A DNA stretch of 64,000 nt from Pedosphaera parvula Ellin514 (GTDB taxonomy: Bacteria; Verrucomicrobiota; Verrucomicrobiia; Limisphaerales; Pedosphaeraceae): assembly GCF_000172555.1 (NCBI RefSeq), contig NZ_ABOX02000036.1, positions 1 to 64,000 of the forward strand. The letters are read 5' to 3'. The translations under genes were made by a program, and so were the position numbers. The notes beneath the pieces were generated by a model. That model saw only the letters and a program-made list of their open reading frames with translations. It had not been told where the DNA came from and made no database searches. Of the stretch, positions 39,609 through 64,000 are shown piece by piece; positions within the stretch are counted from its first letter, which is position 1; each line of letters opens with the position of its first letter.

Positions 39609-41696
39609 TTATTGGCGAAGTCGGAAGAATCTGGGCGCACCGCTGAACGTATTCGTATATGGGCTATTCAAGACCGGTCCGGCCACATCAGTATATGGAC
39701 CGCTTGCGCTCGTAGCAGTTTGCAGAGTGTAAGAGCCTGTCCAATTGAGGATGACGTGACTTTTTGCATCCATGCCTGCGTTGATTTTACCAGGAGGCGC
39801 TTGGGGCTGTTGAGCGCCAACCGGCAACAGGAGCATGCGGAACGAGATTGGGTCCGTCATATTCACCATCGGATCGGCTCCAGATGTGGTAAACCTGAGC
39901 CACTTCGTATTATTCGTGCCGCTAAACTGGAAGCGGACGTGGAGTGAGTTAGTGCCGGTATCGGCAATGATATTGGTAACGGCGGAAACATTCGGATTAG
40001 CCAATATATTTCCGCTTGTAGTTCCCGAGAATGAGGGCTGGCGGAAGATAGATGTACCATTTTCGAAAGTTTGGAAGACAGTAGTTCCATTTTGGACATT
40101 GTCGATATAGAGATCGAATGGTCCGGAATCGGTGCCATTGATTGCAAAGTCAATGGAATCTAAAATTCCCCATGAAGTAGCAATGTTATTGGCATTGCCG
40201 ACTGTAGGATTCCATTGGATGGAAGGTGAGAGAGGGATGCTGTTTGGAGTGAGCGTTGGTGATCCAACAGTCCAGCCCGTATTCGAATCAGTATAGCTGT
40301 TGTTGGTCACGTCACGGTAATCATTGTATCCAAAAAAGTTAGTCTGACGAAGCAGGCGGTAACCGGTTGCTCCAGGAACTGCATCCCAAGTCCATTGGAC
40401 CCGGTAAACATCGTTGCTGGACGTGTAACCGTTCCCTGCCGAAAACACTGGATTCGCCGAGTAAGCGGTTGAGCCGTTAATCGTTTCGTAGGCATAAACC
40501 TTAATATCCACGTAGTCGTTGGCAGCATAGCCAGAGCCTGGAAGTGCGTTGCCGAAAGCAGTTGGAACATCGCCAACGGTTGCTGTGCCGTATTGGAAGG
40601 AGACCGTCTGCCAGGTGTTACTCGGATAAAACACAGGAGCATCAATGGGAGCTTGTGATGAGACTTGGGTCGCGCCCAGGAAATGTACGATCCCACTGCC
40701 GGTATTACCAGTTTGGCCAACTGGGCCGGTGCTGGATGTTTCCCGGATGCTCAGAGCTATGCGAACACTAGGATTGGCGCCTCCCCCGACGAACAGTCCT
40801 GTGCTAGGCACGCAACTCTCCTGGCCAGCAATGGTTTGAGTTGCTGCTATTTGAGCAAGTTTCACCAGACCGGTTACAGGAATCGAATTGTTACCGGCGA
40901 CGAGGCCTGAGGCCTTTTCGCCAATTTTTTGCGTTCCACTGGCAGTAATTTGATAAATTGAGACGTCCGTGGCATTGGCTGCCACTCCGGTAACAGTCAC
41001 AGCAGTCTGACCGATAGCGACAGGACCATCAATGGAAGGTGAGGCGACGCTCTGGCAAAGTTGTGCCAGAGTGAACCGGAAGCAGTCCACAATAAGTCGG
41101 TTGTTTTCGGCTGAAGATATTCTTCCACTTGAATAACGAAAGCTGATAGTCGGAGCCAAATTACCAACAGCGTTGGTGATGTACCCGACGGTTTGCCAGG
41201 TTTTGGTACCATACTTCCTCTGAAATTTGTCCGTGCTGGAGAATGATAATGTGCCTCCCGTGCAGGATGCTGAAAAGATGGCATTCGTAGTCACGTTGTT
41301 AGCGGAACTATCGAAAGTGTATTCAATCAGGTAAGCCGCCCCTCCAATGGCCAAGACGGGCTTAATGTCTATACCCGCACTTTGAGAGGTGACCAGCGGG
41401 CTTGATGTATATGCCCTGGAACCACCCCGTGTGGAAGGAGCGTCGGCAACCGAGCTCTTTGCGCTTGTATCGCCGAGGGTTATGCCCGTTTCGGAGTAAG
41501 TGCCGTCCTGGTTTGCTCCCGCGCCAGTAGTATTAGAGGGTGAGATCAGAGCCCGGGCTGTAACATAAACGGTTTCTGCCATCAGGTTGCTCGCGCAGAG
41601 CGAACTTAAAACCGTCAAGACAGCAAGGGATAGTAATTTTCTTTTCTTCCAAAAGGAAGGAAAGACCGATAGTCGAGTGTAGGCGTATTTTTTCAT
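39609..41696 (-). CDS. Large secreted protein with FnIII-like segment and shared C-terminal module
   Basis: A 695-residue exported protein. The signal peptide is long (about 41 residues, core LLSLAVLTVLSSLCASNLMA). The body is Ser/Thr/Asn-rich and beta-predicted. It contains a fibronectin III-like segment (VQWTWDAVPGATGYRLLRQ) and a jelly-roll-like stretch (DSGPFDLYIDNVQNGTTVF). The C-terminus, VILNWTGSYTLQTATSASGP and SPYTNTFSGAPRFFRLRQ, closely resembles the end of the 42021-46202 protein. Function is unknown; surface adhesion or polymer binding is a guess. It has its own terminator and a palindromic 14-mer 150 bp upstream. Confidence 0.75.
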   Translation of the reverse strand: MKKYAYTRLSVFPSFWKKRKLLSLAVLTVLSSLCASNLMAETVYVTARALISPSNTTGAGANQDGTYSETGITLGDTSAKSSVADAPSTRGGSRAYTSSPLVTSQSAGIDIKPVLAIGGAAYLIEYTFDSSANNVTTNAIFSASCTGGTLSFSSTDKFQRKYGTKTWQTVGYITNAVGNLAPTISFRYSSGRISSAENNRLIVDCFRFTLAQLCQSVASPSIDGPVAIGQTAVTVTGVAANATDVSIYQITASGTQKIGEKASGLVAGNNSIPVTGLVKLAQIAATQTIAGQESCVPSTGLFVGGGANPSVRIALSIRETSSTGPVGQTGNTGSGIVHFLGATQVSSQAPIDAPVFYPSNTWQTVSFQYGTATVGDVPTAFGNALPGSGYAANDYVDIKVYAYETINGSTAYSANPVFSAGNGYTSSNDVYRVQWTWDAVPGATGYRLLRQTNFFGYNDYRDVTNNSYTDSNTGWTVGSPTLTPNSIPLSPSIQWNPTVGNANNIATSWGILDSIDFAINGTDSGPFDLYIDNVQNGTTVFQTFENGTSIFRQPSFSGTTSGNILANPNVSAVTNIIADTGTNSLHVRFQFSGTNNTKWLRFTTSGADPMVNMTDPISFRMLLLPVGAQQPQAPPGKINAGMDAKSHVILNWTGSYTLQTATSASGPYTDVAGPVLNSPYTNTFSGAPRFFRLRQ

Positions 41697-41845
41697 GAAT
41701 GTTAAATATTTTTTTGGAATCTTCCTACTAATCGAAAAACGCTGCCGCTAAGGCCAGTGGTAGGTAGATACTCATAAGAATAATTAAAGCAGCTTGACAA
41801 TGGGGAGGTCAATTGTGTTTGAGCTAAAAGGTGAAATTTTCTTGC

Positions 41846-41859
41846 TACATGTTCATGTA
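41846..41859. promoter_or_regulatory. Palindrome TACATGTTCATGTA
   Basis: This 14-mer is identical to 51855-51868 and contains the same 12-mer core as 11957-11968 (reverse complement). It lies 150 bp upstream of the minus-strand secreted-protein gene starting at 41696. A dimeric regulator could bind; none is identified. Confidence 0.4.
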
Positions 41860-41961
41860 AGTCTCACTAATATAACGACTTGTGCATCATTATTGGACAC
41901 TTTTGGTGGTTTTCGAGGCAGTGAATTTTTCATCGCAGCATTACCTCCTCACATGAGTGTT

Positions 41962-41996
41962 AAAAAAAGAAAAGCCGGAGCAGAAATGCTCCGGCT
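41962..41996 (-). terminator. Terminator of the PA14/Ig protein gene
   Basis: On the minus strand AGCCGGAGCA and TGCTCCGGCT form a perfect 10-bp stem with a TTTC loop, followed by TTTCTTTTTTTA. It starts 25 bp after the stop codon. Confidence 0.92.
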
Positions 41997-42020
41997 TACT
42001 GACTTAAAACCAATCGTTCC

Positions 42021-45000
42021 TTATTCGCTAATCAATCGAAAGAACATTTGCGGATTGGCAGTGAGGTCATTGGTGTACGGACTCGTTGAGCCTGTGACAT
42101 CGACGTATGGTCCTTCGACGTTGGGGGAGCTTTGCAGGGTGTAAGATCCCGTCCAATTCAGAATGAGATTAGTACCATTGCTTACTCCTGCAGCAGTGAG
42201 CTTGGGGTTGGGAGCCGATACGCCCGGGTAGAGTTGGGTTTGCGGAATAATTTGTTTAACCTGGCCTAGGCTGGACCAACTTAATTGTGCCACAGCACCT
42301 ACAGCGTGTTCGTAATATTCCATGATGATATCATACTTTTGATTAGCGACGAGAGAGATCGTGCCGCTCGCCTCGGTGGGACCTTGGTCAATCCAACGAT
42401 CGACGATTTTTTGTCCGTTCACCCACAACCTGGCACCATCATCAGTTCGAGTGTAGAAGGTGTAAGTTTGCGAATAAAGCGGTTGCACCTGACCGGTCCA
42501 ACGAATAGTAAAGTTGTCGACGGTTATCAAAGGATCGGGTGAGCCTGAGCCGAAGTCGAAATCGATGGTGGGATCGATACGGTTGAGATCAGGAGAGCTG
42601 GCAAAAGTCTTAAGCTGGTTGGAGTAATAATCGCCATTCAGACCGGTGCCATTTCCCAAGGTTCCAACCGTAAGGCTTGCTACCAGGCTGGTGGCGGTTT
42701 GGCCAAGCGGGTCGGTGACGAGCACCGTATAACCGCCCGCATTGGATTGCTGAGCGTTGTTAATAGTCAGAGATGATAAAGTGGCTCCGGCAACGTTGGT
42801 GCCATTCAAACTCCATTGATAGGTAAATGGAGAATTGCCATCAGCCGCCACGCTGAAGCTGGCGGCGCCGCCAACAGCGACCACCTGGCTCACTGGCTGA
42901 TTGGTGATGACAAGCGGGAAGTCCAGCACGGCGATGGAACTGGTGATGAGGCCGAGAGAATTCGTTATGACGACAGTATAATTTCCCAGGTTGGCCAATT
43001 GAACATTAGGAAGGTCCAAGGTCCGGTTGGTGGCGCCGGCCAGGTTGGCTCCGTTCAATCGCCATTGATAATTCTGAAGTGAACCGATGGAACCCACATC
43101 GAAGAATCCAAGGCCGCCGCGCGGGACGATATAATTTTGCGGCTGGCTGCAGATGCTGGGCGCAGCAAGTTTTGGGGCCAGGCTAAAGGCGATGATGCCG
43201 CTGCCGCTGTCCAGAGTATAGAGCCGGCTGCCATCAGGAGTGAAGTCAACCGAGCCGGTTCCAAAAGTGCCAACCGAGACGGCAAATGGTTTGGCATCCA
43301 CCGGGCTGTTGGTTGTGGGGGCGACGACGAGAGCATTTAAATCGAACAGATTCATCGAATGAGACGAGCCGGTATTCGGGAGCGTCAAATCTCCAATGAG
43401 ACGTTGATTGGCAATGTCCACGCCGATTGGGCCAAACCCAGGCGAGCCCTGTTTATCATAGATGGCATAGGATGCAGTCAGACTGGCGACAGTTGACGTA
43501 GGGCTATTAAATGAAACGAACTTCGTGGAGTTGGCGGTGGTTTGGCCGTAGAATGTGTTGCCGCAACCAAAGGCGAGGCCCAAACGAACACTGGCATTCG
43601 GCAAATTGGCAACGCTGAGAGCTATGCCGGTAAAATTGATGCCATCAGTCGTGCTGAAAATCGGTACCGTATTTACAGCACTGTTTCCGGAGACGAGGAT
43701 CTGGGTGCCCGCACCAGAACGGCGGACGACAAAATCATCGCCGCACCGTGTCGAGCCACCGAGCGCAAGCCCGCTAAAGGCAGTTGTTGGCGTCGAGTTC
43801 TCATCCTGCCAGCGATAGATGATCAGTGGAACGGTGGCCCATGAGGTTGTCAGATTGCATGCATAGATGGCTCCATCGTCAGCGATATCAATCATGTTTA
43901 ACTTAAACGTACCTACTCCTGTGGAGGCGATGGTGCCGAGATTTAGCTGCTTGATATAAAGACCGGTATTGCCATCGAAGACACCTACGCCCAAAGCATT
44001 CGGACCGTCGGCACCGGTGGCGGAATTCCGGCTGATAACCAGCACATGGCCGGTCTTTGGATTGTACGCCAGGCCGCGTTCCGTGCCAGCTGAAGTGATC
44101 CATTTTGCCCAGGTTGGATTGGCGGCGGATGCCGGGGGAATCGCCCAAAGCTGGGTCAGGATGTTTTCAACCACGAACTGATAGGAGTTTGTACGACGAG
44201 TAGAGCTGGTATCTGTGAAGGCGATTTGGACGGTGTTGGTGGAGTTGGGGGACAAAGGTGTGGCGGGTTGGTATTGCACACTCGTGATGCCAGCTCCGCC
44301 TGAAGTAATCGCCGGTGTAACAACCACCCCATTCAACTGGATTTGGATAGTGTTCGTTTGAACGGTAATGGAGCCGTCAACCAGAGTCGCGTTGATCGTG
44401 GCGGCACGGGGAACGCCGGTATCACCTGGCGCCGGATTGAGTACGGAAATATAGGGCTTGGTGGCTGCGGCCTGAAATGCAGGGATATAGCCGGCCACAT
44501 TGGTGTCATTGACCAGCGTTTTGACACCATTTACGTCCGTTGAAAAGAATTCGAGGCTCGGATCGGTTGTTCCGGGATTCGCCGGTTCCAATCCGCCAGC
44601 AAAGTAAATCACGCGAAACGGATAGTAACCAGTCTGAGTGACGGCGAATGTGAAGGTGGAGTCTGCCGCTGCCCGGACGCCATCAAAGGCACGGGCCTGC
44701 GTGGCAAAGACGTCTGCATTCGCCGCCTCGGTCAGTTTGAAACCGTCGGAACTGTTTACTCCGAGAGTGTAGAGGCCGGGAGTCAAATGTAAGTAAGTAA
44801 CGGCATCCAAGGCAATGTTGGTCGCTCCACCTGTAGTCCCAGGAATACCTGGCATGGAGATATCTGGCGTGAAGTTGCCTTGATCAAAGGTCAATGAATA
44901 GTTGAGTGTGTTGGTTTCCTGATAGATAAAACTGGCATCGATGGGATTTGGAGTTGCCAAATTGGTGTAGGGCAGGCTGGTGGTCGGGTCAATGAGCCGG

Positions 45001-46202
45001 TTGGCGAGTTGATTTTCCGCGCGCTGTAGTGTTGGCCCAAGGTTTACATCGATCTGGCTGACACGGATGGTGAATCCGGGATTGGCGCTCACGAGCGATG
45101 GCGTAGCGATCAGGTTGGTGGGGAGAGTGGTATAGGTAGCGACGGTGAACCCATATTGAAAGGTGTTCGTATTCGGCGTTGGGGTGGCATTATCCGCAAA
45201 AGTCAAACTGACCGAGTGGGTTGAACCGGACGTGAAGAGGGCTGGCGGAGTGAAGCTGATCAGGGTGCTGGGAGCAGATTGAGTGATGCTGGAAGCGACA
45301 TTAGTGCCATCCAACGTTAGCACAATCGTGTTCGTATCCACCGAACTGGTATTATCAGAAAGGGTGATGTTAATTGGACTGTCTCCGCGCACGTTTCTGC
45401 CAATAGGGGCAAACGATTGTACAAATGGCTGGGCATTTGTGAAAGTTGTTATATTCAGGTTATCTATGAAGTGATTATCATTTTGTCCCCCGGTGCGAGC
45501 GCCAAAGCCGAAGTGCCCACCGGTAGTTGGTGAAAGGCTCACGAACAAATTGGTATAAACTGGTACGCCATCGTAATAAACGTCCAGGGTGCTATCAGGA
45601 TTGAGTTGAATGACAACATCGACGAATGCATTGGCCCTGATTCCTGGAAAAGAGGCGGTTGCCACTTCAAACCCGCCCACCTTGACGTCGATCGAAGGAG
45701 CAGCATCGTTGGGATCTGTTGTATTAAGAAATGTGTCGAATTCCACTGTCAAGCCGGTGCCTGCGCCTTCTTCCCCCAGTGGGAAAACTCCAAACGGCAG
45801 ATCCGGAGCAAAATTAAAGCTAAACCCGTCCGCCGCAGAACCGCCACCCACCAGCGCTTTGAACGAAGCGGTGAAACTCACCACTGGTTGGCCTGCGTCC
45901 AGATCATTTGTGATAACAAAGGTTCCAGTTTGGCTGGCAGTTGTGGTTGTTAATTTAAGACAGCCGCTATTCGAAAACCCTCCATTCGTGGAGACCACCG
46001 CGTTTCCAAACACAGCAGACCCTGCGGGTACACCGGAATTGAAATCAGTGACGAAACTGCCAGCCTGTGCAGAAACCGTTGCTCCAAGCAAAATACTGCT
46101 GGCAAAGGCGGCGTATTTCGTCAGGAACCGGGAAACGACAAGGGGTGTAATATTCAAGTTTTGAATACGAGTTAAGAGTAAACACTTTTTTATAGAGGTC
46201 AT
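42021..46202 (-). CDS. Giant secreted protein with lectin-like, Ig-like and PA14 domains
   Basis: A 1393-residue exported protein. A signal peptide (FASSILLGATVSAQA) is followed by an L-type lectin/concanavalin-like domain (about 48-250, with GGSAADGFSFNFAPD and LTVEFDTFLN). Next come beta-sandwich repeats, a beta-propeller-like middle (RLYTLDSGSGIIAFSLAP at its end) and two Ig-like domains (VLDFPLVITNQPVSQVVAVG, FTYQWSLNGTNVAGATLSSL). A PA14 domain follows (YTFYTRTDDGARLWVNGQKI, about 1190-1325). The last 60 residues (LILNWTGSYTLQSS to FFRLISE) are shared with the 39.6 kb protein. The domain set points to carbohydrate binding outside the cell. Confidence 0.82.
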   Translation of the reverse strand: MTSIKKCLLLTRIQNLNITPLVVSRFLTKYAAFASSILLGATVSAQAGSFVTDFNSGVPAGSAVFGNAVVSTNGGFSNSGCLKLTTTTASQTGTFVITNDLDAGQPVVSFTASFKALVGGGSAADGFSFNFAPDLPFGVFPLGEEGAGTGLTVEFDTFLNTTDPNDAAPSIDVKVGGFEVATASFPGIRANAFVDVVIQLNPDSTLDVYYDGVPVYTNLFVSLSPTTGGHFGFGARTGGQNDNHFIDNLNITTFTNAQPFVQSFAPIGRNVRGDSPINITLSDNTSSVDTNTIVLTLDGTNVASSITQSAPSTLISFTPPALFTSGSTHSVSLTFADNATPTPNTNTFQYGFTVATYTTLPTNLIATPSLVSANPGFTIRVSQIDVNLGPTLQRAENQLANRLIDPTTSLPYTNLATPNPIDASFIYQETNTLNYSLTFDQGNFTPDISMPGIPGTTGGATNIALDAVTYLHLTPGLYTLGVNSSDGFKLTEAANADVFATQARAFDGVRAAADSTFTFAVTQTGYYPFRVIYFAGGLEPANPGTTDPSLEFFSTDVNGVKTLVNDTNVAGYIPAFQAAATKPYISVLNPAPGDTGVPRAATINATLVDGSITVQTNTIQIQLNGVVVTPAITSGGAGITSVQYQPATPLSPNSTNTVQIAFTDTSSTRRTNSYQFVVENILTQLWAIPPASAANPTWAKWITSAGTERGLAYNPKTGHVLVISRNSATGADGPNALGVGVFDGNTGLYIKQLNLGTIASTGVGTFKLNMIDIADDGAIYACNLTTSWATVPLIIYRWQDENSTPTTAFSGLALGGSTRCGDDFVVRRSGAGTQILVSGNSAVNTVPIFSTTDGINFTGIALSVANLPNASVRLGLAFGCGNTFYGQTTANSTKFVSFNSPTSTVASLTASYAIYDKQGSPGFGPIGVDIANQRLIGDLTLPNTGSSHSMNLFDLNALVVAPTTNSPVDAKPFAVSVGTFGTGSVDFTPDGSRLYTLDSGSGIIAFSLAPKLAAPSICSQPQNYIVPRGGLGFFDVGSIGSLQNYQWRLNGANLAGATNRTLDLPNVQLANLGNYTVVITNSLGLITSSIAVLDFPLVITNQPVSQVVAVGGAASFSVAADGNSPFTYQWSLNGTNVAGATLSSLTINNAQQSNAGGYTVLVTDPLGQTATSLVASLTVGTLGNGTGLNGDYYSNQLKTFASSPDLNRIDPTIDFDFGSGSPDPLITVDNFTIRWTGQVQPLYSQTYTFYTRTDDGARLWVNGQKIVDRWIDQGPTEASGTISLVANQKYDIIMEYYEHAVGAVAQLSWSSLGQVKQIIPQTQLYPGVSAPNPKLTAAGVSNGTNLILNWTGSYTLQSSPNVEGPYVDVTGSTSPYTNDLTANPQMFFRLISE

Positions 46203-49411: not shown

Positions 49412-50254
49412 TTAATATGTCGTAAACCTGATGATTTTCTGCAAGTCAATATTGGGTGTGCCAATCCCACTGGGGGAAGTCCATTGAGCAGTGGTATTGG
49501 TATCATTCATTTTGAATATCTCGGCATGGCCATCCGCGAAATTCCAGGAGAACGCATTGGCGTGGCGCCGTGTAGGAGCATCGAGAAATTTGGCACCAGT
49601 TAGATCAACCAGGAACATGCCGTCATTGATGCTGCTGGTGTCCTCATCTATCAATACCCATGTCTCCGAGGGTTTGGTGATTTGGATGCTTTTCGTAAAA
49701 AACGTATGAGTCAGACCGGATGGGGATTGCCAGTAACTGGGATTTCCTCCTTCACCGTATGCTATGCCGCCCACCCAACCATTCATGGACAAACTGCGCA
49801 AGACTGGTACACCCCTCCAATTATTTTTATCTGCTGGACAATGATATACTCCGGCACTCTTCACATAGGGCCAGAACTTGCCTTGTTCCAACGCATATTG
49901 ATTGGTGCCATCATAGAGGGGTGGTGGGCCATATGTAGCGTTGGGGCCCGACGCAGCACAATTGCCGGGACACCAGGTATAAGGGTTTACGCCAGTAGTA
50001 GGAGTGAGAGGAGAAGTGCCGATCGGGTATGCAGGAGCAATAAAGCCTCCGCTATCGTCGGCATACATCACAAAGGCTAATCCCAACTGCCGCATGTTAC
50101 TTGTGCACGCAGTTCGCTGCGCCTTCAGTTTTGCTTTGGCAAGCGCAGGCAAGAGGAGCCCCGCAAGAATCGCGATAATGGCAATAACTACAAGGAGTTC
50201 GATCAGCGTAAACGCGCGGTATGCAAAACCGGGCCGGACTCGAGCGTGTTTCAT
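49412..50254 (-). CDS. Prepilin-type protein with H-X9-DG-like end
   Basis: A 280-residue protein starting with a prepilin-like helix ([20 protein letters not shown]), with R-A before FTLIE where many have G. The rest is a beta-rich extracellular domain of the kind abundant in Verrucomicrobia and Planctomycetes ([28 protein letters not shown]). It closes with [19 protein letters not shown], matching the H-X9-DG signature. These proteins may form pseudopili; their function is unknown. ATG at 50254 puts the helix near the N-terminus. Confidence 0.85.
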
Positions 50255-50404
50255 AAAGGCAATATGGAGTAACGAATTTTCAACTACAAGCCTGTGCATC
50301 GAAACGCACAGTACGCAGTTTGTGTAATAGCATTAGCAGTTTGCAAATGAGAGGTCAATTAGTTGTAAGTGCTTCTTATGGCTCAAATCAGGTGGCAACA
50401 AGAA

Positions 50405-55393: not shown

Positions 55394-58300
55394 ATGAACT
55401 TTTCGCATTTTTTCATCAAGCGCCCGATCTTTGCCGGCGTATTGTCGATTATTATTTTCCTGCTCGGCTTGATATCGATGTTCCGGTTGCCGATCAGTGA
55501 ATACCCGGAAATTGTGCCACCCACCATTGTGGTGATGGCAACATATCCGGGCGCCAATCCCAAGACGATTTCTGAAACCGTGGCCGCGCCGTTGGAGCAG
55601 GCGGTCAATGGCGTTGAGAACTCGTTGTATATGTTTTCCCAGGCAACTGGGGACGGGGTCATGACCCTGACGGTGACGTTTGCGTTGGGAACCGACGTGG
55701 ATAAGGCGCAGGTGCAGGTGCAGAATCGTGTTTCGCAAGCCTTGCCAAAGTTGCCGGAGGAAGTGCGCCGCCTGGGCGTGACAACGATTAAACAATCGCC
55801 GGATTTGACGATGGTGGTGCATCTCATTTCTCCAAGCGGCCGGTATGACGAAATTTATTTGCGCAATTATGCCACGCTGCAGGTGAAGGATGTACTGGCG
55901 CGTATCCCGGGTGCCGGGTCGGTGCAGGTATTTGGGTCCGGGCGACTATGCGATTCGTATTTGGTTGGATCCCAACAAAGTTGCAGCGCGAAATATGACG
56001 GCGACCGACGTGGTAAATGCCATTCGCGAGCAGAATGTCCAGGTCGCCGCCGGCGGCATCGGGCAACAGCCGGTGAGCAAGCCAGTGGCACTGGAATTGC
56101 AAATTAACGCCAAGGGACGTTTGATTGATGAAGATGAGTTCCGCAATATCATCGTTAAGACGGGACCACATGGCGAGAAAACGCTGCTGAAAGATGTGGG
56201 CCGGGTTGAATTGGGGGCGGCAGGTTACGCATTGCGCTCGTTGCTGGACAATAAAACGGCGGTCGCGCTGCCGATTTTTCAATCTCCGGGTGCCAACGCG
56301 ATTCAGCTTTCCACCGATGTTCGCAAGGCAATGGATGAGTTGAAGAAGAACTTTCCCGAGGGTGTTGATTACAGCGTGGTTTATGATCCAACGGTTTTCG
56401 TGAAGCACTCCATTGAAGCGGTGCTGCATACGCTGCTCGAAGCCATCATGCTGGTGGTGATTGTGGTTATTCTCTTCCTGCAGACGTGGCGCGCATCGAT
56501 CATTCCATTGGTGGCGGTGCCGGTCTCGTTAGTTGGAACATTCGCAGTAATGTTGGGGCTTGGATTCAGCATCAATGCGCTCTCCTTGTTCGGCCTTGTG
56601 TTGGCCATCGGTATCGTGGTGGATGATGCGATTGTGGTGGTGGAGAACGTGGAGCGAAATATCGCGCTTGGATTGTCACCACTTGAGGCCACGAGAAAGG
56701 CGATGACGGAAGTGACGGGGCCGATTGTGGCCACGGCGTTGGTGCTATGTGCGGTGTTCGTGCCGACCGCATTCATCAGCGGGTTGACGGGGCAGTTTTA
56801 CAAGCAGTTCGCGATCACCATCGCCATTTCAACGGTTATTTCGGCGTTCAACTCCCTGACGTTGTCGCCGGCACTTTGCGCGGTGTTATTGAAGGGGCAT
56901 GGGGCGAGGAAAGACATCGTTTCACGTGTCATGGATCGCGGCCTTGGATGGCTTTTCCATCCGTTTAACCGCTTCTTCGCCTGGACTGGCATCAAGTATT
57001 CCGCTGGCGTAGGCCAGGTGATCCGGAAGAGTGCGATCGCATTGATTCTCTATGCGGGCTTGGTGTTCCTGACGGGATGGGGTTTCAACAAGGTGCCGAC
57101 CGGTTTCGTGCCGACACAGGACAAGCAATATGTGATTGCTTACGCGCAATTGCCTGATGGTTCTTCACTGGACCGCACCACCGATATCATTCGCAAGATG
57201 ACTGATATGGGATTGCACACTCCAGGTGTGGCAAATGCCGTGCAGTTTCCCGGTTTGAGCATCAGCGGGTTCAGCGTAGCTCCCAATGCGGGAATTGTGT
57301 TCTTTGGACTCAAGCCATTTGAGGAGCGCACAACAAAGGATAAGAGTGGCATGGCGATTGTGGGGGCGTTGCAGCAGCAGTTCTCCTCCATAAAGGACGC
57401 GTTGGTTTTTGCCTTTCCGCCGCCGCCGGTGATGGGCCTGGGGGCTTCGGACGGCTTCAAGCTGTATGTGGAGGATCGCGCGGATCTTGGCTACGATGCC
57501 TTGTACCAAAATACAATGGGCGTATTGGGCAAGGCCTGGCAGAGCAAGGAACTAAACAGCCATAGCACTTACTCCACTTTCACCGTGAATGTGCCGCAAA
57601 TCGATGCGAACATTGATCGCGTTAAAGCGAAGGCTCAGGACGTTCCGCTCGCGAGTCTTTTTGATACGATGCAAATCTATCTCGGGTCGCTTTACGTGAA
57701 TGATTTCAATCGTTTCGGTCGGACGTTCCAGGTGATTGCGCAGGCAGATGCGGAGTTTCGTGAACATCCGGAGGACATCGTTCGGCTGAAGACACGTAAT
57801 GCCAAGGGACAGATGGTATCGCTCGGGACATTGTTAAAGGTAAAAGAGACTCATGGTCCCGATCGCGCGATGCGCTACAATGGCTATCCGGCAGCGGAAA
57901 TCAGCGGTGGGCCGGCACAGGGCTTTAGCTCAGGCCAGGCTGAGGCGATGATTGCAAAACTGGCGGGAGAGAATCTGCCGAAAGGTATGACCTATGAATG
58001 GACTGATTTGACGTATCAACGCATTCTTGCGGGTAACACAGCGGTATATGTTTATCCGCTTTGTCTTCTGCTCGTGTTCCTCGTGCTGGCGGCACAGTAT
58101 GAAAGCTTCCGTCTGCCGCTCGCGATTATTTTGATTGTGCCGATGTGTTTGTTGTTCGCCATTACAGGGGTGTGGCTCAAGGGGAGCGATAACAACATCT
58201 TCACGCAGATTGGTTTGATTGTGCTGGTGGGTTTAGCGTGCAAGAACGCGATTTTGATCGTGGAGTTTGCAAAGGACAAACAGCACGAAGGAATGTCGGT

Positions 58301-60068
58301 GGTCGACGCTGCCATTGAGGCATGCCGGTTGCGGTTGCGTCCGATCTTGATGACATCCATTGCCTTCATTGCCGGTGTGTTTCCGCTGGTGGTGGCAAAG
58401 GGCGCTGGTTCTGAAATGCGCCAGGCGATGGGGATCGCGGTGTTTAGCGGTATGATTGGTGTTACCATCTTCGGATTATTTCTGACGCCGGTCTTTTACG
58501 TGGTGCTCATGAAGTTGGGACGTAAGAAAACCAACGTGACTGCTCCCAAGGAGGATGGGCATGTGCGGCCTTTGGAATCGAATGGCGCCGTGGTGAAGAC
58601 GGTTGCAGTGCTGTTGATCACGATGGTTGCGTTGAGTGCCAAGGCAGCAGTGGGGCCGAATTATGTGCGGCCGACGAACGCGGTGCCGCAGGAATATAAA
58701 GCCGAGGAGTTGGGGAATTGGAAGGAGGGGAAACCGCTCGACCATTTGCCGAAGGGCAAGTGGTGGGAGGTTTATGAAGACGCGACGCTCAATGAACTGG
58801 AGGAGAATGCGTCAGCCGGCAATCAGGGTTTAAAAGGTGCGGTGGCACGGGTGGAGCAGGCGCGGGCAACGGCGCGAGTGGCGCGTGGGGAACTGCTGCC
58901 ATCGCTGAACTTTGACCCCAGTTTTATTCGCCAGCGGTTCTCGCCGAACCAGGATCCGAGTTTTGGCGCCATCACGGCAAATTCATTTAGCGTGCCGCTG
59001 GACTTGAGTTATGAGATCGACTTGTGGGGCAGGGTGCGTCGCGGCTTCGAGAGCGCGAGGGACCAGGCGGCGGCGAGTCTGGCTTCGTACTACAGCGTTC
59101 TGCTCACGTTACAATCGGACGTCGCACAGAACTATTTCGGACTGCGCTCGCTCGATGCGGAGATAGCGACGGTGGCGCGCACGGTGGAGTTGCGCAAGGA
59201 GCAGGTGCAATTGGTGCACGGCCGGTACGAGGGTGGCATTGGAAGCGAGTTGGACATGGCGCGTGCGGAAACGGAGTTGGCCAATGCCGAGGCGGAAGCG
59301 GCGGGATTGGCCAAGCGAAGGGCGGAGCTGGAAAATGCGATTGCGATTCTGGTGGGAAAGATTCCATCAGAATTTCATCTGGCTGCGGGTACTGCGCCAA
59401 ACTGGAATCCACAGCCGCCAACGATTCCTGCCGGATTGCCGGCAGATTTGTTGCAGCGTCGTCCGGATGTGGCGACAGCGGAACGCAACCTGGCATCGGC
59501 CAACGCGCAGATTGGCGTGGCGAAAGCGGCGTTCTTTCCCGTGGTGAGCCTGACTGCTTCCGGCGGCTATTTGAGCGGCGACATTGAGACACTATTCAAT
59601 TGGTCGAGCCGTACGTGGTCCATCGGGCCGAGCATATCGCTGCCTATCTTTGCGGGTGGCCGGAACAAGGCAAATTATCGTCGCTCCAAGGCGGCGTACC
59701 AGGAGGCTATTGCAACTTATCGCCAGCAGGTTCTGGTGGCGTTCGGGGATGTGGAGAACAGCCTGGCTGGAATTTATCACCTGGCAAAACAATCAGAGGC
59801 ACAGAATCGCGCGGTGGCGAGTGCCCAGCGAGCGGCTGATCTGGCAACGGAACGTTACCGTTCGGGGTTGGTGAGTTACCTGGACGTGGTGGATGCTGAT
59901 CGTGAGGCGTTGACGGCCGAGCGGGCACGGGCGCAGTTGGCCGGGCAACGGCTCGTGGCGAGTGTGCAGTTGATCAAGGCGTTGGGTGGTGGCTGGACCG
60001 AGGCGATGGTTGTTCCGCAGGCCAAGCAGGTGAGCGTTACGACAGCTTCGGCGAAAAAGGCGCTGTAA
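55394..60068 (+). pseudogene. HAE1-type RND efflux pump fused in frame to an outer-membrane factor, one frameshift
   Basis: The first 183 codons (FFIKRPIFAGVLSIIIFLLG, PISEYPEIVPPTIVVMATYP) read in one frame up to VFGSG. One extra C at about 55943 then shifts the frame, and DYAIRIWLDPNKVAARNMTA onward continues to 60068. Removing that base gives 1557 residues. The first 1045 or so are a full AcrB/MexB-like proton-driven pump with the TM4 acidic pair (AIGIVVDDAIVVVENVERN). Without a stop the chain runs on through a hydrophobic segment (TVAVLLITMVALSAKAA) into a TolC/OprM-like channel protein of about 490 residues. Whether the shift is a sequencing error or decay is undecided; the rest looks fully maintained. 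Confidence 0.88.
58563..60068 (+). CDS. Outer-membrane factor (OprM/NodT family), possible separate start
   Basis: The channel portion of the efflux system, 501 residues if begun at GTG 58563. That GTG lies eight bases after a perfect AAGGAGG (58548-58554). The resulting N-terminus would be a normal signal peptide (TVAVLLITMVALSAKAAVGP). Family features are VGPNYVRPTNAVPQEYKAEE, two OEP repeats with YEIDLWGRVRRGFESARDQA and LPADLLQRRPDVATAERNLA, and FFPVVSLTASGGYLSG. The acylated cysteine common in OprM/NodT proteins is missing. It can be made as part of the fusion, separately, or both. Confidence 0.75.
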   Translation: MRPLESNGAVVKTVAVLLITMVALSAKAAVGPNYVRPTNAVPQEYKAEELGNWKEGKPLDHLPKGKWWEVYEDATLNELEENASAGNQGLKGAVARVEQARATARVARGELLPSLNFDPSFIRQRFSPNQDPSFGAITANSFSVPLDLSYEIDLWGRVRRGFESARDQAAASLASYYSVLLTLQSDVAQNYFGLRSLDAEIATVARTVELRKEQVQLVHGRYEGGIGSELDMARAETELANAEAEAAGLAKRRAELENAIAILVGKIPSEFHLAAGTAPNWNPQPPTIPAGLPADLLQRRPDVATAERNLASANAQIGVAKAAFFPVVSLTASGGYLSGDIETLFNWSSRTWSIGPSISLPIFAGGRNKANYRRSKAAYQEAIATYRQQVLVAFGDVENSLAGIYHLAKQSEAQNRAVASAQRAADLATERYRSGLVSYLDVVDADREALTAERARAQLAGQRLVASVQLIKALGGGWTEAMVVPQAKQVSVTTASAKKAL

Positions 60069-60154: not shown

Positions 60155-62123
60155 ATGAAGGCTAATTTCCGCTCAACGTGGGCAATGGCATTCTGCATTG
60201 CGCTCATTTTGTATTTGATACCCGGCGGCACGGTGCAGGCACAGGTGGCACCGGGGCCTTACGAGATGCTGCCGTTTCAGACGGGTTCATCATCGAGGGC
60301 GTTCAAGGATTTGCTGACCAACACGACTGCGATAGCAGATTGGACAGGCTGGTCGGGCAGCACGTGGGCTTCTCCAGATCCATACAATGATCACATTGGG
60401 TCGGACTTTTCGGTGCAGACGGGGACGCCCGCTTTTCGCGGCGACGGCGGGAACGGTGGTGGAGATTGAGACGACGAATGCGAGGAATGCGCATGCGGAT
60501 TATTACGGCAATCATGTGAAGATTGCGGTGGATGGAAAGACTCCGAATGGCGAATCCATTGACCTGATTTATGCGCACATGCTGGCGGTGACGGTGAGCG
60601 TGGGGCAGCATCTGAATGTGGGGGATCCGGTGGGGCTCTCAGATAACACAGGCAATTCCACGACGGAGCATGTGCATTTCCAGAGTGAATACCGGGGCGG
60701 GGCGCAGACATGCCCGTTTTATTTCGCACACTTCAAATACCCGATTGTTTTCAATCCAACGGGGACATTGCAGGTGGGCAGGGTGATCCGAGTGACTGCA
60801 CCCAGCACGCCGATTCGGACAGATCGATTCGATAGCAGTTCGCAGATTACGACTGCTTATTCAAACCAGCTGTACTTCTGCAGTTATCCGAAGCGGGGTT
60901 ATTACCAAGTTTTTATTCCCAATAATACTTCGTGTCGATCGGGTTGGATCAGGGCGACGGAGGCGGAGGAAGTTTTTGCCGGCACGGTGATTCAGGCGTT
61001 GCCGGATAATGCGGCTTTCACGCAACTGGGGCAACTCGCGAGCAAGTACGCCATCCTCTCGGGGGCGAATGATACCAACAACCAGATCGGACAGATTGTT
61101 TTTGGTGGTGGTCGTTTCGTGGCGGATCAAATCACGAACGGATACTATCGCATCCCATTGCCGGGAGCTTCCGCGACATGGGGTTGGGTGAAGCCGACGG
61201 CTCGGATGGTGGTGTATCCGCAATTGACGAATCCGAATCTGAACCTGGCGACGTTGCCGAATAACAATTTTCCGATACGGGAATCGTTTAGCAGTGTGGG
61301 CAAGTCGATGTTTGGTCGGCCGAAGTTTAATCGCTCGGTGGTGAATACGTTCAGTCCGGCGTCGCCGGGTGGTGATGGAAAGGCGTTGTTTGTGACGGAT
61401 GCCACGAATGCCGGCGATGGGACGAGTGAATCGGTGTTGGTGGGGAAGCCGTGGCATAAAAATTATTATGTGCAGTGCGATGTGTATTTCAATTATCGCC
61501 CGTCCTATCTGGTTGGTGATGGCGGTTACGAACGCTATGGAATATTTTTGCGCGACGATGGGTTCGCCGGTTTGGACACGACGTTTGAAGGAGCCGGGAA
61601 TGCTTATGCGCTGCTCTGGGATGCGGATGACGGTCGTTTGCGGGCTGCGAAACTGGTGGATGGGGCGGTAACGGATTTTTTACCCACGATAACATATGTC
61701 ACTGGAAGCGGATGGCACACGATGCGCATTGAAGCGCGGGGGAATAAAATTAAATACCTGTTGGACGGGCAGGTGTTGATTGAGGCGACGGATTCGACGT
61801 TTGCTTCGGGACAATTTGGCATTGGCTACTCGATGCATTTCACCGGCTATCCGGCGGGTCGTGGGGCGTATTTCGATAACTTTGTGGCGGACACGTTGGA
61901 TGTGACGCCTCCGCGTTTTGGTGTGAGTTTGCAGGCGGATGGGAAGCTGCACTTATTGCTGAGCGGAGATGTGGGATCGACCAGTGCGGTGGAGCGGGCG
62001 ACGAGTTTGAGTCTGCTCGATTGGTCATTCTACACGAACATCGTCAATAGCAATGCGACGGTGGAATTCCTGGATGAGACGAATGTGCCCGCACGGTTCT
62101 ATCGGGCAAGAAGGTTGCAATAG
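60155..62123 (+). pseudogene. Secreted M23 (LytM-type) peptidase with C-terminal beta domains, one frameshift
   Basis: A signal peptide (AMAFCIALILYLIPGGTVQA) is followed by an M23 zinc endopeptidase domain that cuts peptidoglycan cross-links. The zinc ligands are in DHIGSDFSVQTGTP and TEHVHFQSE, with the family's LIYAHML between. One extra T in the TTTT run at 60433-60436 moves the frame; removing it joins TGTPAF to AATAGTVVEIETTNARNA. The repaired protein is about 655 residues. After about residue 200 it has SH3-like and concanavalin-like regions (MFGRPKFNRSVVNTFSPASP, YLLDGQVLIEATDSTF). The end, PARFYRARRLQ, resembles the C-termini of other exported proteins here. Confidence 0.85.
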
Positions 62124-63670: not shown

Positions 63671-64000
63671 CTATGGTTTGCGCAAACGATAGAAGACGCT
63701 TCCTTGTGTTACGCTATCAGTGATTGTTAGCGTGCCCATCCCCTGGCCGGGGAGTTGGGAAAAATTTGTCCAGCTGTTGGCGGCAGAGAGATTGATGGTC
63801 TTCTGCAAGTTCCAGCCGGACACGGAATTTGTCCATGCGATAGAAATAATGTCATTGGAGAGGTTCAAATGGAGTTTGGGAATCACGGGCGGAATGATTG
63901 AGAAGGCAAGGAAACCATTGTTCCCATCGCAGGCATAGAGCCGGTCCCCATTGATCACGATCTGGCCGATGAAATTGGCATTGCCGAGTTCGTTAGTCGG
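63671..64000 (-). CDS. C-terminal part of a secreted protein, start outside the window
   Basis: The frame is open at the window edge, so only the last 109 residues are seen. They begin in a beta-propeller-like repeat (NANFIGQIVINGDRLYACDG, NNGFLAFS). They end in the module LHLNLSNDIISIAWTNSVSG, WNLQKTINLSAANSWTNF and SVFYRLRKP. This is the same type of C-terminus as in the 39.6, 42.0 and 60.2 kb proteins. The ATG at 63958 is internal, since the match continues upstream. Confidence 0.75.
   Translation of the reverse strand, partial: PTNELGNANFIGQIVINGDRLYACDGNNGFLAFSIIPPVIPKLHLNLSNDIISIAWTNSVSGWNLQKTINLSAANSWTNFSQLPGQGMGTLTITDSVTQGSVFYRLRKP

Follow-up and report, generated by a model that had tools for sequence, protein, structure and literature searches.

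Several described systems stand close to the C-terminal domain reported here. The PEP-CTERM signal is defined, together with its C-terminal location, in the cited passages of PMC1569441, and the genome paper on Akkermansia also covers it in the part cited (PMC3048395). For the type IX secretion system (T9SS), the cited text of PMC4804311 describes a C-terminal domain (CTD) with an immunoglobulin-like (Ig-like) fold of seven strands, the last of which is essential, and suggests beta complementation. For the type II secretion system (T2SS), the cited passages of PMC7949064 name loop 3 of the fibronectin type III (FN3) domain of Pel3 as a key signal. We compared with these a protein end found in a 64,000-nucleotide stretch of Pedosphaera parvula Ellin514 (contig NZ_ABOX02000036.1, positions 1 to 64,000; the window). 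This end, called the tail below, is one C-terminal domain family of 60–66 amino acids carried by dozens of mostly unrelated, apparently exported proteins.

An earlier sequence-only reading had pointed to a shared end on the proteins at 39.6 and 42.0 kb, and both open reading frames (ORFs) lie where it placed them on the minus strand. The protein of the first (39609..41696) has 695 amino acids and a start resembling a signal peptide, and Pfam gave no match for it at E ≤ 1; the second (42021..46202) encodes a multidomain protein of 1393 amino acids in which Pfam found Ig domains, PA14, and a subthreshold match to L-type lectins. Their last 60 residues are 52–54% identical, with LNWTGSYTLQ in common, followed by GPYxDV, SPYTN, and FFRL. 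The tails themselves, both of the short form, occupy 39612..39797 (minus strand, ending FFRLRQ-stop; E 2.5e-20 in the genome search with profile A2, described below) and 42024..42212 (minus strand, ending FFRLISE-stop; E 2.6e-24), the latter being also the query of our first genome search and the subject of an AlphaFold2 model. A six-frame scan of the window with the family profiles, whose training set included these two ends, gave independent E values (iE) of 9.8e-21, with 0 residues left to the stop, and 2e-24. The partial protein at 63.7 kb, for which a related end had been proposed, matched at iE 1.8e-13 although its end was not part of the training set. Its long-form tail (63674..63859, minus strand, ending FYRLRKP-stop) closes the C-terminal part (63671..64000, minus strand) of a protein that runs past the window edge; the whole locus (L200:1175-3562) encodes 796 amino acids with the start as called in our analysis.

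The kinship proposed for an M23 peptidase ORF (60387..62123, plus strand; Pfam M23) was not confirmed. Its end, FYRARRLQ, is weakly tail-like, and PARFYRARRLQ fell outside the best 25 matches of the window scan and alone scored 3–8 bits, a match that is not significant and does not establish membership. The peptidase is split across two overlapping frames (60155-60469 and 60387-62123, plus strand), and its gene is therefore broken or misread.

The family occurs in a short form, with the approximate consensus L.W..g.tLQsatnv.GPYtdv.gatSPYtn......FFRLr, and a long form, approximately LsWP....gf.Le....l....W..v...........FYRLrkp. When the 42.0-kb tail was searched against its own genome (7.41 Mb, 102 contigs), 33 places matched at E ≤ 1. 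Profile A2, built from 27 short-form tails of this first search, matched at least 108 places at E ≤ 1 (150 of 258 candidates scored), and profile A5, built from 25 long-form sequences, at least 99 places at E ≤ 1e-3 (150 of 301 candidates scored). These genome-wide counts are given for each form separately and not for all forms taken together. Six-frame translation of 226 loci, scanned with three profiles, one of them a small one made from three sequences with a DHTGW-like motif, yielded 79 distinct own-genome copies at iE ≤ 1e-6. In Pfam and NCBIfam at E ≤ 1, no family was common to more than one of the 52 members (27 short-form and 25 long-form); isolated matches had E values of 0.0067 or worse, the best being DUF481 at 0.0067. 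As matched by these 52 members, the tail is an undescribed domain, absent from both collections. We found no report of it among the titles and abstract openings listed from the open-licence PMC literature, which does not prove it unpublished.

Nearly all detected copies sit at the stop codon. In the first search, 29 of 30 loci reached it within 0–26 residues, the exception being the weak L030 (E 0.136). We then considered 47 of the A2 places (E 2.2e-12 to 0.0031), two of which overlap the 30-locus set; the weakest 34 of the 108 places were not examined singly. Forty-four of the 47 end 0–14 residues before the stop, and the remaining three are two internal tail-like copies and one ordinary internal FN3 domain. 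Within the own genome, 77 of the 79 distinct copies end no more than 8 residues from the stop; at the laxer threshold of iE ≤ 1e-3, two nonterminal copies had a stop in view, namely L085, the first of a tandem pair, and L096, an ordinary FN3 domain. Two profiles run over 394 loci found 195 distinct copies, of which 187 end within 8 residues of the stop and two more within 20 (L385 and L124). Six were internal. The tail is thus clearly not as frequent inside proteins as at their ends, the pattern that the sequence-only reading had named as refuting its proposal. The profiles hold no stop codon but were trained on terminal copies, and the counts are shares of detectable copies because the loci were fetched for matching.

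The end itself is narrowly fixed. In 155 of the 187 terminal copies, the last aromatic-aromatic-Arg motif is followed by exactly 3 (55 copies) or 4 (100 copies) residues, and in only four was the motif not found. FYR and FFR together account for 159 of the 188 terminal copies listed (the list holds one duplicate). The final residue is Pro or Gln in 109 of the 187, compared with 55 of 276 non-tail ORFs of at least 200 amino acids from the same loci.

Profile searches covered 40 genomes of one order (Limisphaerales), among them the own genome, a second from its genus, and six others from its family. The short form was present in 36 and the long form in 39 of them, the own genome included. Tails were few or lacking in G014, G030, G032, and G036. 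In a sample of 240 genomes from the phylum, also including the own genome, the short form was found in at least 15 and the long form in at least 30; these are lower bounds because at most 26 candidates were scored per genome, and some of the matches are ordinary FN3 domains (L212, L214). The tail is sparser in the phylum outside the order. A scan with a four-sequence short-form alignment returned 39 named loci, 38 of them labeled Verrucomicrobia, Pedosphaera, or Limisphaerales. The remaining one, L156, belongs to a metagenome-assembled genome labeled Candidatus Omnitrophota, for which transfer, a wider distribution, or a mislabeled contig are possible. This distribution of the tail is well supported, as are its terminal position and fixed end.

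The proteins that carry the tail are diverse, in agreement with the claim that a conserved end stands behind unrelated domains. Both ends were in view for 64 tail ORFs of the own genome; the 60 of them that were scanned matched 106 Pfam families at E ≤ 1e-3. Among the 25 families listed, the commonest were Ig_3 (18), I-set (15), LamG_3 (14), and Ig_2 (14), with PATR in five proteins and GH16 in three; NCBIfam placed the choice-of-anchor GloVer repeat in two of the tail proteins scanned. A signal-peptide-like start was present in 55 of the 64 tail ORFs, which is weak evidence because the same lax rule also passes 42 of 69 non-tail ORFs.

AlphaFold2 modeled the short form (A2) with a mean pLDDT of 88.6 and a pTM of 0.72, with strands at residues 6–10, 16–21, 25–30, 47–50, and 58–63 of 64. 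The long form (A5) was modeled with a pLDDT of 84.0 and a pTM of 0.65 and has six strands, the last at 60–65 of 66; the counts of five and six include strands of at least three residues. We read the models as a putative FN3/Ig-like sandwich that ends after strand F and would lack strand G, the strand names being assigned from strand order and the FN3 alignments, with coordinates not inspected. The PDB search with Foldseek gave no match at E ≤ 0.001; its best rows were FN3-containing entries (5g56 and 3mpc; probability 0.99, E ~0.1). VIA-align gave the short form tied Z values of 4.9–5.7 to the Fn3 domains of PelI and Pel3, CtXyl5A, 3mpc, and many FN3 or Ig-like domains, and gave the long form 4.9–6.6 to cytokine-receptor, Ig, and starch-debranching-enzyme domains; all of these Z values are middling and may reflect fold resemblance only. 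The structure alignment to 3mpc ends at residue number 77 of that 96-residue chain. Against PDB sequences, profile A2 matched the Fn3-like chain 3mpc (E 0.0033), and profile A5 matched glucanase/chitosanase chains, the best match, to a CBM32-like chain, extending over 60 residues (E 3.7e-4). The Pfam scan of the 52 members found neither PF00041 (fn3) nor F5_F8_type_C in any of them; one member matched Fn3_Dep-1_5th at E 0.12.

The tail had been described as a tag other than PEP-CTERM, and this holds: PF07589 matched none of the 52 members, and the printed tails are without a Pro-Glu-Pro motif, a transmembrane helix, or the basic-cluster arrangement. PEP-CTERM occurs in the same bacteria, in 35 of the 40 genomes (nine matches in the own genome), with exosortase in 37. 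We compared hosts, aligning 52 unique PEP-CTERM ORFs without their last 32 residues with 195 tail proteins without their last 70. At E ≤ 1e-4, 11 of the 52 had a homologue among the tail proteins, compared with 3 of 52 among 515 non-tail control ORFs, which hold more residues in total. None of the 52 carried a tail at iE ≤ 0.01, and in five the alignment extends to both end modules. Within the own genome, L340 (PEP-CTERM) and L175 (tail) are 58% identical over 255 amino acids, with Ig domains between the homologous region of L175 and its tail. L350, a PEP-CTERM protein of genome G022, is 43% identical to L127 over 330 amino acids, and the former runs into VPEPSTYVLIGLGVGALWLVRQRKR where the latter runs into the tail; L350 is also 33% identical over 347 amino acids to the 63.7-kb protein of the window, up to both end modules. 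At L336 (G001:C109, 467-6173), a tail gene, a PEP-CTERM gene, and another tail gene follow one another on one strand, and the PEP-CTERM product shares partial homology with one of its two neighbors.

We also compared 19 closed ORFs with GloVer repeats: 14 have the tail at their end at iE ≤ 1e-4, and two more by eye only (iE 3 and 10); the three without it include two fragments of a single locus. When the three ORFs that we added from tail-selected loci are set aside, 11 of 16 are tailed. Outside the order, a few GloVer proteins end tail-like (L298 and L305; weakly L262, L266, and L285). In other Verrucomicrobiota families, GloVer proteins (L286-L289, L293-L297, L304) have other recurrent ends, such as ...WWGTGAWKLKAAGR and ...GGTHLLHVAVP, possibly further lineage-specific end modules. 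End modules are thus frequently exchanged, according to lineage. The TIGR03803 description had led us to expect PEP-CTERM at the ends of GloVer proteins from outside the order; it was at none of the ends examined, and we dropped that argument.

Searches for a matching secretion system in the 40 genomes covered three markers. SprA_N (PF14349), the one T9SS component searched, matched none of them, so that tracking with type IX secretion, which the sequence-only reading had suggested, was not seen as far as tested; none of the 14 control genomes matched either, and because the controls were silent the result is no proof that T9SS is absent. Por_Secre_tail and other T9SS-tail models likewise matched none of the 52 members in Pfam and NCBIfam at E ≤ 1. 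The structure-alignment rows listed for the A2 and A5 models contain no T9SS CTD chain, which excludes nothing. GspG (PF08334) matched 29 genomes at E ≤ 1e-3, as well as the Escherichia coli and Caulobacter controls. At that threshold it had no match in the tail-rich, same-genus genomes G000 and G001, and it was found in G032 and G036, where the short form had no match and the long form one and three, respectively. We accordingly set aside a GspG-type T2SS as the system that tracks the tail, other T2SS parts not having been searched. Exosortase was rejected as the tail's machine; it is present in most of the genomes, but the tail is without PEP-CTERM sequence features and the rank correlation is weak (0.31).

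We propose that in this order the tail serves as a C-terminal domain by which extracellular proteins exported through Sec are sorted or attached, an alternative used in the slot of PEP-CTERM, and we rate this proposal midway between doubtful and probable. Sorting or attachment is the best single explanation because it accounts for where the tail sits, for its fixed end, and for its exchange with an established sorting signal. The earlier suggestion of an export or anchoring tag gains independent weight from the replacement by PEP-CTERM on homologous hosts; the tag role itself is hypothetical, and no machinery was found with the markers searched. On this proposal, the host protein would cross the inner membrane by its signal peptide, and the tail would fold in the periplasm. 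The open edge strand F and the free end F[FY]R-x(3,4) might then be bound by a putative envelope receptor or outer-membrane export machine, which would move the protein out or hold it on the surface. We infer the recognition of the tail end, the receptor, the destination, and strand complementation. In a more specific version, which we think unlikely, the tail would be an address label read by an as yet undescribed machine for export across, or anchoring at, the outer membrane, with about a hundred client proteins in each genome of Verrucomicrobiota subdivision 3. Recognition would be by strand complementation, a receptor strand taking the place of the missing strand G beside the FYR strand, and would work like the T9SS CTD or a pilin groove while being related to neither.

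Several observations weigh against a sorting role. The six internal copies (L079, L087, L219, L380, L381, and L384) include two in the own genome, L079 and L087, each with at least 190 residues of open frame behind it, and in the 226-locus scan L163 and L166 were also nonterminal, with more sequence behind, a stretch that we take to be formylglycine-generating-enzyme-like. The p-value of the Pro/Gln bias (Fisher p 2.5e-17, on the 188 listed copies) is optimistic, and the statistic overstates independence because the copies are related. The signal-peptide rule discriminates poorly. The conserved Trp and GPY are also present in an ordinary FN3 domain and may be structural. Short-form copy number follows genome size (rho 0.76) far more closely than it follows PEP-CTERM (0.39), exosortase (0.31), or GspG (0.25), and no cognate machine was found among the three markers searched. 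As to the exchange, the 52 PEP-CTERM ORFs combine 30 from automatically picked loci with 22 that we chose ourselves, partly for length; the 30 automatically picked loci alone gave 5 of 32 PEP-CTERM-like ORFs homologous to a tail protein (E ≤ 1e-3). In some matches (L351, L352), the host regions aligned are repeat-like. Most GloVer-repeat proteins from outside the order have other ends. Exchange alone is no proof of sorting because end domains are exchanged freely in the phylum.

In a real rival explanation, the tail is an ordinary stabilizing or sugar-binding C-terminal domain that descends from an FN3- or carbohydrate-binding-module-like ancestor, was spread through domain shuffling, and plays no part in sorting; it would be terminal because a sandwich lacking strand G caps the chain well. 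We consider this possible, if somewhat doubtful. The fold matches to FN3/Ig domains, the sequence matches of the short form to Fn3-like 3mpc (E 0.0033) and of the long form to a glucanase/chitosanase chain (E 3.7e-4), the existence of internal copies, and the other end domains borne by the same repeats in other lineages all favor such a structural or sugar-binding module. It leaves unpredicted, however, the narrow end with 3–4 residues after Arg in 155 of 187 copies, the bias for Pro or Gln, and the replacement by PEP-CTERM, itself a sorting signal. The tail might instead be a recognition module for T2SS, as is the Fn3 domain of PelI/Pel3. Both of these domains are among the top structural rows (Z 5.7, root mean square deviation 2.7, 61 residues aligned), tied with many others, and Pel3 contributes the loop 3 signal cited at the outset; the middling Z may mean fold resemblance only, and the absence of GspG matches from G000 and G001, together with its presence in the short-form-free G032 and G036, makes this improbable. 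Least credible of all is a divergent type IX CTD exported by T9SS. The size class is the same, as is the predicted Ig-like fold, but none of the 52 members matched a T9SS-tail model at E ≤ 1, the tail models have five and six strands against the seven of the CTD, and SprA_N was not found in the 40 genomes, which with silent controls is not proof.

If the proposed sorting or attachment role is correct, it would define, in a bacterial order about which little is known, a large group of proteins that are secreted or sit at the surface. The tail would then be a handle for finding how large proteins cross the outer membrane of these bacteria or are retained there. It is, to our knowledge, an open question how the many large extracellular proteins of Verrucomicrobiota reach their places, and the tail makes it testable by reporter fusion. 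Annotators gain a domain that is missing from Pfam and NCBIfam.

Two other loci in the window drew our attention. A single 1392-residue frame at 55890-60068 (plus strand) encodes, in this order, an RND pump (ACR_tran, matched from position 174 of the profile) and an outer membrane efflux protein (OEP) domain, an apparent pump-channel fusion whose start is probably missing upstream. At 49412-50299 (minus strand) lies a pseudopilin-like protein with N_methyl and a subthreshold DUF1559 match; the genes near it are presumably FeoA/FeoB-like, recognized by eye without a search.

Compared with the described systems, the tail resembles PEP-CTERM/exosortase in its place at the very C-terminus of diverse proteins and in its copy number, several to many per genome; both occur in the same genomes and on homologous hosts. 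It differs in being a predicted folded beta domain of 60–66 amino acids, in contrast to the 24-position PEP-CTERM model, and its hosts are longer (median ORF 682 versus 249 amino acids). The choice-of-anchor proteins of TIGR03803 are hosts of the tail (14 of 19), GloVer itself being the host repeat and not the tail. Like the type IX CTD, the tail is a C-terminal beta domain, predicted to be Ig-like and comparable in size, that is carried by diverse exported proteins; there is no sequence match, and the five and six strands of the models, in which the last strand appears to be missing, stand against the seven of the CTD. FN3 domains are like the tail in the best fold matches and in one weak sequence match, with strands A, B, C, E, and F lining up by our own assignment. 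An FN3 domain has seven strands, A–G, whereas the tail models end after the presumed strand F, apparently without G. The tail is further set apart from FN3 by its fixed FYR end at the stop codon and by the absence of a Pfam fn3 match in its 52 members.

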